A DNA stretch of 64,000 bases, taken from contig NC_012982.1 in assembly GCF_000023785.1 (NCBI RefSeq), positions 2,604,001 through 2,668,000 of the forward strand, read 5' to 3'. A model generated the notes under the pieces. It was not told where the DNA came from. It made no database searches and worked only from the letters and a program-made list of their open reading frames with translations. Shown in pieces: positions 3,421 to 55,135 of the stretch. Position 1 is the first letter of the stretch. Each line of letters starts with the position of its first letter. The position numbers were made by a program, and so were the translations under genes. This DNA comes from Hirschia baltica ATCC 49814 (GTDB lineage: Bacteria; Pseudomonadota; Alphaproteobacteria; Caulobacterales; Hyphomonadaceae).

Positions 3421-3479
3421 GGCATTGGCAGATTAAACGTCTTATTTCCAACTTAGCCAGCTTTCGCTAAGCTGCAAGC

Positions 3480-4256
3480 ATGAAAACTTCCATCTTCCGA
3501 TACTTCAAAACATCACCCGAAATCATCAAACTTGCCGTGATGATGTATATTCGTTTTCCACTCTCACTGAGAAATGTAGAAGACCTACTTCACGAGCGTG
3601 GAATTGATATCACGCACGAAACTGTTCGGTTTTGGTGGAACAGGTTTGGTCCCTACTTCGCATCAAAGATCAGGACAAAACGTTCGGCTCAAATGCGTAA
3701 GTTCCCTCAATGGCAGTGGCACCTTGATGAAGCTCCTGCCGGAGCCTTTTTCGCTTAGCTTTGATCTACTAGATCAAAGCTTTGGCATACGCTAACCAGC
3801 TCCAAAGTCGTCAAGATCAACGGTGAGCTTCACTACCTTTGGCGAGCGGTGGATCATGAAGGTGAAGTCCTAGAAGCTTACGTTACCAAACGCCGTAACA
3901 AACGAGCAGCATTGAAATTTTTACGTAAAGCAATGAAGCGATATGGCCCGCCTCACCTGTTAGTCACGGATAAATTGAAATCATATCGTGCAGCAATGAA
4001 GGACATTGGAAATGCTGATAGACAAGTGACAGGACGTTGGTTGAACAACCGATGTGAGAATTCTCACCAGCCGTTCCGACGACGAGAAAAGATCATGAAT
4101 AAATTCCGGCAGACCAAGAGCTTGCAAAAATTCATTGCCATTCAATCGTCAGTTCACAACCATTTCAATTTGGAGAGACATCTCTACTCAAGATACAATT
4201 TTAAACGAAACCGTGACGTCGTTCTGAACGAATGGCGACAGCTTTTCACTGGCTAA
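3480..4256 (+). pseudogene. IS6-family transposase, split by a stop-containing 75-nt block (copy A)
   Basis: The N-terminal part (92 codons to a TAG at 3756) has the IS6 helix-turn-helix and the RFPLSLRNVEDLLHERGIDI core and runs to WHLDE, which holds the first catalytic Asp. The C-terminal part resumes at VVKINGE, carries the second Asp (LLVTDKLKSY) and the Glu (NNRCENSHQPFRRRE), and ends normally with NEWRQLFTG. Both halves are in the same frame. Only the block between them (3732-3806) carries stops (TAG, TGA). A GTG at 3849 could start a separate C-terminal product. Outside the block the frame is clean, so decay is recent or the interruption is somehow tolerated. Confidence 0.85.
3732..3806 (+). 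repeat. 75-nt palindromic stop-containing insert in transposase (copy A)
   Basis: It sits between the GAA codon of HLDE and the GTC codon of VVKINGE. It holds stem 1 (GCTCC/GGAGC, followed by CTTTTTC, terminator-like), stem 2 (11 bp, AGCTTTGATCT/AGATCAAAGCT with loop ACT) and a possible stem 3 (CTTTGG/CCAAAG). AGCTCC occurs at both ends. All three forward frames are closed across it. It is identical to the block in copy B. Confidence 0.85.
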
Positions 4257-4323
4257 AAAAACACCCTAACCCGCCAATTAGAGACCAGTTAGCTTTTGTC
4301 TGACATCACCGCTCGACAGTATA

Positions 4324-21735: not shown

Positions 21736-21808
21736 CCCCTCCCCCAAAGGGCATTGTCAGATTAAACCGCTCGTTTCCAACTTAGCCAGTGGTCGCTAAA
21801 CTGGAAAC

Positions 21809-22587
21809 ATAAAAATCCTCTATCTACCGATACTTCAAAACCTCATCAGAAATCATCAAACTTGCTGCGATGATGTACATCCGATTTCCACTCTCATTGA
21901 GAAATGTGGAAGACCTTCTTCATGAGCGCGGAATTGACATTACGCATGAAACCGTTCGATTCTGGTGGAATAGATTTGGTCCCTATTTCGCTTCAAAAAT
22001 TAGAAAGAAGCGTGCCGCCCAGATGAAGAAGTTCGAACAATGGCAGTGGCACCTCGATGAAGCTCCTGCCGGAGCCTTTTTCGCTTAGCTTTGATCTACT
22101 AGATCAAAGCTTTGGCATACGCTAACCAGCTCCAAAGTCATAAAAATCAACGGAGAACTTCATTAATCTGTGGCGTGTTGTAGATCACGAAGGCGAAGTT
22201 CTCGAAGCTTACGTCACCAAACGCCGCAACAAACAGGCAGCATTGAAATTTTTACGTAAAGCCATGAAGCGATATGGCCCGCCCCATTGTATAATTACAG
22301 ATAAATTGCGCTCTTATAAAGCGGCAATGAATGAAATCGGGAATGCAGATAAACAGCTCACTGGGCGATGGCTAAACAATAGATGCGAGAATTCACATCA
22401 ACCGTTTTGACGACGAGAAAAGATAATGAATAAGTTCCGACAGTCAAAAAGCTTGCAAAAATTCGTCGCTATCCAATCATCAGTTCACAATCATTTTAAT
22501 CTGGAGAGGCACTTATACTCAAGGTCAAATTTCAAACGAAATCGCGACATCGTTCTGAACGAATGGCGACAGCTTTTCACTGGCTAA
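21809..22587 (+). pseudogene. IS6 transposase pseudogene (copy B)
   Basis: The start codon is ATA where copies A and C have ATG. A frameshift lies just after the 75-nt block (CTTCATTAATCTGTGG against CTTCACTACCTTTGG), and a TGA at 22408 replaces the CGA of FRRRE. It has both in-block stops as well. HLDE, the DKLRSY Asp and the RCENSHQPF Glu are still readable. This copy cannot make an active transposase. Confidence 0.85.
22062..22136 (+). repeat. 75-nt palindromic stop-containing insert (copy B)
   Basis: Same site, length and sequence as in copy A. The identical stretch spans 84 nt (22056-22139 against 3726-3809), although the 110 nt upstream and 60 nt downstream differ at roughly 20-25% of positions and the gene is dead. 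Confidence 0.85.
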
Positions 22588-22637
22588 AAAAACGACCGTC
22601 CCAGTCACTCAGAGACCGGTTAGCTTTTGTCTGACAC

Positions 22638-22685
22638 CACCGCCATTCAGTCCGGCTGTTTCTGATAATCCCGTTCTCTCTCAAA
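22638..22685. repeat. direct repeat 2 (tRNA-Ser 3' end), att-like
   Basis: Identical over 30 nt to 2860-2889, then 15 of 18 more bases match. It holds only the 3' tail of the tRNA (CACCGCCA) plus downstream sequence, not the tRNA body. It adjoins the right end of IS copy B. Confidence 0.75.
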
Positions 22686-22773
22686 ATATTACCGATTTAA
22701 CCGTTGAATCGCCCCGAGTTTATCGAAGGCTGTTTTATTTGAGTCATGCTACACGAGCCGACTCGGTTTGTTG

Positions 22774-23095
22774 CTAAAAAAGTTTTTCATACTCAGCTGG
22801 CGATACGTAATTCAGCACGCCATACAAGCGACGGCTATTAAACCACTCAACCCATGTTGCTGTCGCTAATTCAACTTGGTCAAGATTTTTCCAAGGGCCT
22901 TCCTTCGTTCAACGGCGCAGCGCGCAACCGCCTCCTTGTTGTTCAGGAGCTGATGCCAGATTTTATGAATGCCGTAGTTACGAAAGCTATCCTCCCAGAT
23001 TTCATTGATCTTAAGCTCTAGCTCCTCGTCTCGCTTGAGCTTTCGATTCTCAGGATCAAGTGTTTTGATTCTCTCAAGAAAGTTAGCCTCCGATA
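22774..23095 (-). pseudogene. IS3-family OrfB transposase remnant
   Basis: The minus-strand frames read the N-terminal part (KRDEELELKINEIWEDSFRN, NYGIHKIWHQLL, VARCAVER) and then, with the middle lost, the C-terminal tail WVEWFNSRRLYGVLNYVSPA with stop at 22774. The central rve catalytic domain is deleted. The rest of the gap to 23355 shows no gene. Confidence 0.75.
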
Positions 23096-54107: not shown

Positions 54108-54255
54108 AATATATTAATAATATATGATCAAGAACTATAATCTGTTTGGTTCGAGAATACAGGGGCAATTGCTAATGCTTAACCATACAATCATAGGGCA
54201 TTGTCTGATTAAACTACTCACTTTCAACATTGCTAGCTTTCGCCAAGTTGAAACC

Positions 54256-55032
54256 ATGAAAACATCCATCTACCGCTATTTCAAAACCTCACCAGAAATC
54301 ATCAAACTTGCCGTGATGATGTATATTCGTTTTCCACTCTCACTGAGAAATGTCAAAGACCTACTTCACGAGCGGGGAATTGATATCACGCACGAAACTG
54401 TTCGGTTTTGGTGGAACAGGTTTGGTCCCTACTTCGCATCAAAGATCAGGTCAAAACGTTCGGCTCAAATGCGTAAGTTCCCTCAATGGCAGTGGCACCT
54501 TGATGAAGCTCGTGCCGGAGCCTTTTTCGCTTAGCTTTGATCTACTAGATCAAAGCTTTGGCATACGCTAACCAGCTCCAAAGTCGTCAAGATCAACGGT
54601 GAGCTTCACTATCTTTGGCGAGCGGTGGATCATAAAGGTGAAGTCCTAGAAGCTTACGTTACCAAACGCCGTAACAAACGAGCAGCATTGAAGTTTTTAC
54701 GTAAAGCCATGAAGCGATATGGCCCGCCTCACCTGTTAGTCACGGATAAATTGAAATCATATCGTGCAGCAATGAAGGACATTGGAAATGCTGATAGACA
54801 AGTGACAGGACGTTGGCTGAACAATAGATGCGAGAATTCTCACCAGCCGTTCCGACGACGAGAAAAGATCATGAATAAATTCCGGCAGACCAAGAGTTTG
54901 CAAAAATTCATTGCCATTCAATCGTCAGTTCACAACCATTTCAATTTGGAGAGACATCTCTACTCAAGATACAATTTTAAACGAAACCGTGACGTCGTTC
55001 TGAACGAATGGCGACAGCTTTTCACTGGCTAA
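54256..55032 (+). pseudogene. IS6-family transposase, split by the 75-nt block (copy C)
   Basis: Same structure as copy A: ATG 54256, codons to HLDE, the 75-nt block with TAG and TGA, then VVKINGE to NEWRQLFTG. Apart from the block the frame is intact with the full DDE set. A handful of substitutions separate it from copy A (for example NVKDLL for NVEDLL), consistent with recent movement of one of them. Confidence 0.85.
54508..54582 (+). repeat. 75-nt palindromic stop-containing insert (copy C)
   Basis: Same position as in A and B. It has a single difference (GCTCG for GCTCC in the first stem), which weakens the small stem 1 but leaves the 11-bp stem 2 intact. Confidence 0.85.
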
Positions 55033-55083
55033 AAAAACACCCTAACCCGCCAATTAGAGACCAGTTAGCTTTTGTCTGACACC

Positions 55084-55135
55084 CCCATACAAAGCCAAAC
55101 TCCATGCACCAGAGACCAGTTCGCTTTTGTCTGCC
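55084..55135. mobile_element. solo IS6 right end beside copy C
   Basis: About 25 nt after copy C, a second right-end sequence appears (AGAGACCAGTTCGCTTTTGT, then CTGCCACT). The TTCGC variant matches the right end of deleted copy E (59.75 kb) rather than copy C, so it is a relic of another, older copy. Confidence 0.65.

Follow-up and report, generated by a model that had tools for sequence, protein, structure and literature searches.

A hairpin-rich 75-nt block interrupts IS6-family transposases of Hirschia baltica at the first catalytic residue

Three IS6-family insertion sequence (IS) elements, here called A, B and C, lie in a 64,000-nucleotide stretch of Hirschia baltica ATCC 49814 (NC_012982.1, positions 2,604,001 to 2,668,000; "the window" below, positions counted from its first letter). 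In each of them a hairpin-rich block of 75 nucleotides (nt) sits directly 3' of the HLDE codons that hold the first catalytic Asp of the transposase. Reading the loci bears out the original prediction on this point, except that the block starts and ends one base later than given there (3733-3807, 22063-22137, 54509-54583). As also predicted, A and B are identical over 84 nt (3726-3809 and 22056-22139) amid roughly 20% divergence, their coding sequences outside the block being 81.6% identical (553/678) with a longest identical run of 35 nt. The divergence between the copies shows that the block arrived late, with exact bounds, in the A/C line, the B line or both. The explanation we prefer, with slightly less than even confidence, is that the block is a small insert, non-coding and rich in hairpins, which knocks out the IS6 transposase at the first catalytic residue and was copied in by a process that sets its edges.

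The block and its host elements

The features that carry the analysis are as follows.

3421..4310, + strand: IS6-family element A (890 bp) with inverted ends GGCATTGGCAGA / GGTGATGTCAGA; PF13610 DDE_Tnp_IS240 match in the catalytic half, E 4.8e-40
3480..4256, + strand: interrupted transposase frame of A; only a 92-residue N-terminal fragment is encoded, MKTS...HLDEAPAGAFFA, then stop
3733..3807, + strand: 75-nt block in A, standing where the empty site GATGAAG-TCT-TCGTCAAG has about 3 nt (TCT); net +72 nt
3732..3745, + strand: terminator-like stem GCTCC-TGCC-GGAGC, then CTTTTTC, in A; 0.8 expected by chance in the region
3757..3781, + strand: palindrome AGCTTTGATCTACTAGATCAAAGCT with an 11-bp stem in the block of A, from fold and sequence
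21750..22641, + strand: IS6-family element B, 892 bp; transposase additionally dead
22063..22137, + strand: 75-nt block in B, identical to the block of A
54197..55086, + strand: IS6-family element C, 890 bp; coding sequence about 97% identical to A
54509..54583, + strand: 75-nt block in C, one change relative to A, disrupting one pair of the first stem

The host elements have the single DDE domain of IS6-type transposases (PF13610, in the half after the block). They measure about 890 bp and carry inverted ends, and the 8-bp target duplication of the family was found at none of the three. The suggestion that A and C moved recently thus finds no support in target duplications, and these two copies are simply about 97% identical. 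Since the profile match begins at profile position 11, in the half after the block, the first Asp precedes the block. The transposase of B had been called a dead gene, correctly: independently of the block, its start is out of frame, a 1-nt shift breaks the frame 3' of the block, and there is a TGA. Directly downstream of B, at 22750-23000, the minus strand resembles by eye the C-terminal part of an IS3-type transposase.

In A the block brings the expected in-frame TAG (3756) and TGA (3762), and the translation runs MKTS...HLDE-APAGAFFA to a stop and resumes beyond TAG and TGA as SKVVKINGE. Read from their sequences, A and C can only encode the 92-residue N-terminal fragment, which ends just past the first catalytic Asp. 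Most simply, then, the IS6 family of this genome would be dead; a repressor role for the predicted fragment is conceivable. As to its structure, the block folds as RNA more stably than all of 200 shuffled sequences (z -4.0), and as DNA, on either strand, more stably than nearly all shuffles. The terminator-like stem is indeed present, though its chance expectation is close to one, and the single difference between C and A within the block is a C to G change in the first stem. The AGCTCC repeats noted near the block ends exist, 67 nt apart, but stand in different frames; their excision would remove 67 nt and leave the frame broken, so we rejected it as a route of gene restoration.

The block occurs exactly three times in the host genome (two contigs, 3.54 Mb), always in the window and on the + strand, and the three transposases that carry it are the only close ones of their kind there. 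A, B and C share one orientation and fit within 51 kb.

Timing of the insertion and searches for further copies

Between A and B the synonymous divergence (dS) is 1.30 and the non-synonymous divergence (dN) 0.062, their ratio (omega) of 0.047 being similar before and after the block and 0.048 in the half after it. Synonymous sites differ at 31/51 and 62/99 in the two transposase halves, with few non-synonymous differences. At the rate of the flanks, the chance of 75 identical bases is about 2e-7, and at the synonymous distance of A and B coincidence is, on these sequences, out of the question. The low dN/dS implies that both lines evolved as working transposases during most of their separation. 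A gene stopped at codon 93 cannot evolve under such constraint, so that the block postdates the split of the A/C and B lines in one of them or in both. The evidence from A and C is weaker than that from A and B: their codon changes, 15 synonymous and 4 non-synonymous, depart from neutrality (P 3e-7), and the single change in the block has P 0.005 at the synonymous rate and 0.34 at the overall rate.

The edges are sharp. A and B cease to be identical 7 nt to the left of the block and 3 nt to its right, where the flanks have diverged fully, and their identity does not cover the flanks as a simple conversion tract, which the original prediction had envisaged as a counter-explanation, might do. 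The probability that both ends of a random conversion tract covering the block fall this close is 0.04 at best (mean tract 20 nt) and 0.002 for a mean of 100 nt. At 54814-54830, in a gene otherwise A-like, C has three adjacent B-like codons (AAT AGA TGC), as a comparison with A 4041-4056 and the corresponding part of B shows. The patch has both its limits within about 22 nt and suggests very short transfers between IS copies. Targeted reactions of the IS26 type have been reported to yield gene conversion (PMC7885326). Because the tract would be improbably short and yet short transfers appear in C, we keep two mechanisms: insertion or copying set by the site, and a single insertion followed by short conversion.

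Empty sites, for which a search among relatives had been proposed, were found. Among 299 relatives searched, 79 genomes contain related IS6 transposases, the empty site being HLDEVFVKINGE; the inspected copies read HLDEVFVKI[N/R]GE, lack the block and have at this position either the empty site or another insert. Measured against GATGAAG-TCT-TCGTCAAG, the block puts 75 nt in place of 3, which agrees with the predicted excess of about 72 nt over normal IS6 transposases. Searching about 400 relatives with the block itself gave no further copy, a spacing pattern free of block sequence gave no block-like longer insertion at the site in relatives, and the block was not found in the plasmids or the viral contigs searched. 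A scan of 85,000 species genomes for the main hairpin returned 38 matches, all by chance; as the scan demanded the central stem, a strongly altered relative of the block could escape it. A low-threshold scan of the own genome for block fragments or a source yielded chance matches of 14-16 nt only.

Rfam has no family over the block even at E 10, the remaining matches being implausible and outside the block, and this speaks against a group I or II intron or a known structured RNA. The block is also no miniature inverted-repeat transposable element (MITE) or other non-autonomous transposon, since the palindrome is internal and only three copies exist, at one site. Integron attC core sites (RYYYAAC...GTTRRRY) were not seen in the block in a reading by eye, with no program run.

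A 20-nt insert in relatives

Short inserts at this position are not confined to the block. An unrelated 20-nt insert was first seen in two IS6 copies of another genus, at HLDEVFV^K (the caret marks the junction), 10 nt downstream of the block site. AGCCGAAGGCAGGCGTAGCC and close variants occur at exactly this boundary in several copies from three genomes of that genus, in L167, whose genome belongs to the same genus as the window, and in G395 and G174 from two further families of the order (variants ACCCGAAGGGCGGCGTAGCC and AGCCGAAGGGCGGCAGAGCC). The IS6 transposases interrupted by the insert come from genomes of four genera and three families; every copy has flanking bases of its own, and what follows the insert is usually AAC. 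The same 20-mer breaks IS3-type transposases at WSYE^FVQDRT, NM^FIERLW and LM^NINGI (Sphingobium plasmids) and in an IS3-type orfA, always as ...G^AA. Over the cases considered here, the target mostly conforms to G^AA[C/G/A]. The loci are:

IS6 loci with the 20-nt two-hairpin insert: L104, L105, L106, L110, L112-L114, L117, L118, L165, L167, L177/L191, L190
IS3-type loci with the 20-nt two-hairpin insert: L108, L115, L116, L185, L193-L195

Read as two 3-bp hairpins, the insert pairs in 96.7% of cells, and one hairpin pair is changed on both sides (GC to CG, in three rows), which 5/500 shuffles match. On a tree of 72 copies the insert is polyphyletic and requires at least 7 state changes; an insert-bearing copy of G174 is sister to an empty copy in the same genome (support 1.0), and G096 presents the same picture (0.99). 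Between compared copies the insert is 75-100% identical (mostly at least 85%), the flanks 58-84%. The genome of the window lacks it, and a look outside the order, in 111 genomes spread over the class, did not turn it up; degenerate matches outside transposases are mostly coding coincidences. As far as sequence comparison goes, these copies show that the codons near the catalytic Asp are entered again and again by short, hairpin-forming inserts whose edges are exact, and by analogy they support a real class of short inserts.

Two further loci were noted on the way. L111/L189 (G077:C51) matches the 20-mer with one mismatch (...CTG^insert^AAGATCTGCTC) and resembles the IS3-type orfA locus L185. 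In L086 (G202:C1), the first half of an IS6 copy is replaced by other sequence that itself has an IS6-like end (GTTTTGTCTGACACCACC), which looks like the insertion of one element into another or a recombination between the two.

Origin of the block and comparison with known systems

Under the explanation we prefer, the block would have been copied into the conserved GATGAAG...GTC codons, its edges being set by the target and by the hairpins themselves. Candidate routes are site-directed insertion and microhomology-primed copying from another copy, and the 20-nt two-hairpin insert that repeatedly enters adjacent IS6 codons in related genera may serve as a model. Translation of the transposase would end inside the block, which would leave the IS family silent in this genome today. 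A tiny mobile palindrome targeting this site, one of the readings offered originally, is plausible as a class through the 20-nt insert and is not proven for the block. Several findings weigh against this explanation. The 20-nt insert is unrelated in sequence (no homology is seen in a comparison by eye) and lies 10 nt off, and hence offers analogy, not homology. No block copy beyond the three IS6 copies turned up in the genome or in the 85,000 scanned for the main hairpin, which one would not expect of a mobile element; on the IS6 tree the three elements group as a single clade, and one ancestral gain suffices on the tree alone; and the B-like patch of less than 22 nt in C suggests ordinary very short conversion among copies. 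The last point leads to the closest competitor, which we regard as less probable, yet a serious contender: one chance insertion in the A/C line, after which ectopic gene conversion, or conversion during IS26-type targeted cointegration, transferred no more than 84 nt to B; in this case the block itself would be immobile. The confinement of the block to three direct copies within 51 kb, the AAT AGA TGC patch, the conversion reported for IS26-type reactions and the Phe codon beside the block, lost alike in both lines, all agree with it. It requires, however, both tract ends within 7 and 3 nt of the block although the flanks differ by about 20%, and many copies of the 20-nt insert in relatives agree in their exact edges, which points to a process that fixes them. 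Of the readings offered originally, mobile palindrome and local gene conversion both stay alive and jointly hold most of the probability: the block is late and has exact bounds, and the copies hint at short-patch transfer.

By comparison, it is very improbable that the mRNA loses the block or the ribosome skips it, with transposase still being made and the block itself under strong constraint. The single block-bearing clade, the A-C and A-B divergence typical of working genes, a net length that is a multiple of three and the strong fold would all suit removal. An ancestral origin would then fit the tree, provided that the block is fully constrained and removed from the product, and this needs constraint tighter than that on the protein. 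Zero changes in 75 nt between A and B are unlikely even at the non-synonymous rate of the transposase (estimate about 0.01, from dN 0.062), the one change in C disrupts a stem pair and so speaks against complete constraint, and B has decayed with its block still intact. Besides the missing Rfam match, no in-frame matched take-off and landing codons join HLDE to VKINGE; the only bypass-type codon pairs are TGG, CAC/CAT and CTT, every one upstream of the catalytic Asp. We give even less credence to the idea of an ancient off switch or repressor, which the copies would have had from their common ancestor and retained for a benefit that the truncated protein or the terminator brings to host or element. 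The terminator-like stem, the stop codons and the N-terminal region retained by the truncated product speak for it. It is largely refuted by the dN/dS of the downstream catalytic half, which was under purifying selection in both lineages (omega about 0.05) as a permanently truncated gene would not be, and the block is absent from all relatives searched.

If small palindromic inserts do repeatedly hit the same few transposase codons, they would rank with the smallest mobile DNAs and would give transposon families a natural route to extinction. With empty and filled sites across many diverged copies, the movement of such tiny sequences is directly testable. More speculatively, and in our view unlikely, Alphaproteobacteria may be home to several nano-insert families, site-directed, non-coding, hairpin-forming and 20 to 75 nt long, whose members copy themselves into transposase catalytic-site codons and shut transposons down, as IS hyperparasites or as a host brake.

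Among known systems, the Rickettsia palindromic elements (RPEs) leave the reading frame open. They and other small palindromic repeats (PMC2229807, PMC3733652) resemble the block as palindromic inserts in a protein gene with a length that is a multiple of three, whereas the block contains stops in frame and is not scattered among different genes. Within the IS6 family, ISRle39a, ISRle39b and ISEnfa1 "apparently require a frameshift", and ISEnfa1 has a 10-nt insertion (PMC7986276); these too are transposase frames annotated as frameshift-requiring or with a short insertion, for which the review states no position or sequence. Translational bypass elements (T4 gene 60; the byps of Magnusiomyces mitochondria, PMC5009743) are likewise short, structured, stop-containing inserts in a conserved gene. 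The block differs from them in having no matched take-off and landing codons and no sign of a working product. The small dispersed repeats (SDRs) of cyanobacteria, like these inserts, are very small, hairpin-forming and exactly bounded within other elements, and come closest to the 20-nt insert. The block does form hairpins, but it is longer than SDRs and occurs in three copies in a single context, at one codon position of one transposase family, so that we rejected it as an SDR. SDRs, described by Elhai et al. in 2008 (cited in PMC3116915), reportedly measure 21-27 nt. The 20-nt insert of relatives fits this type better than the 75-nt block does.
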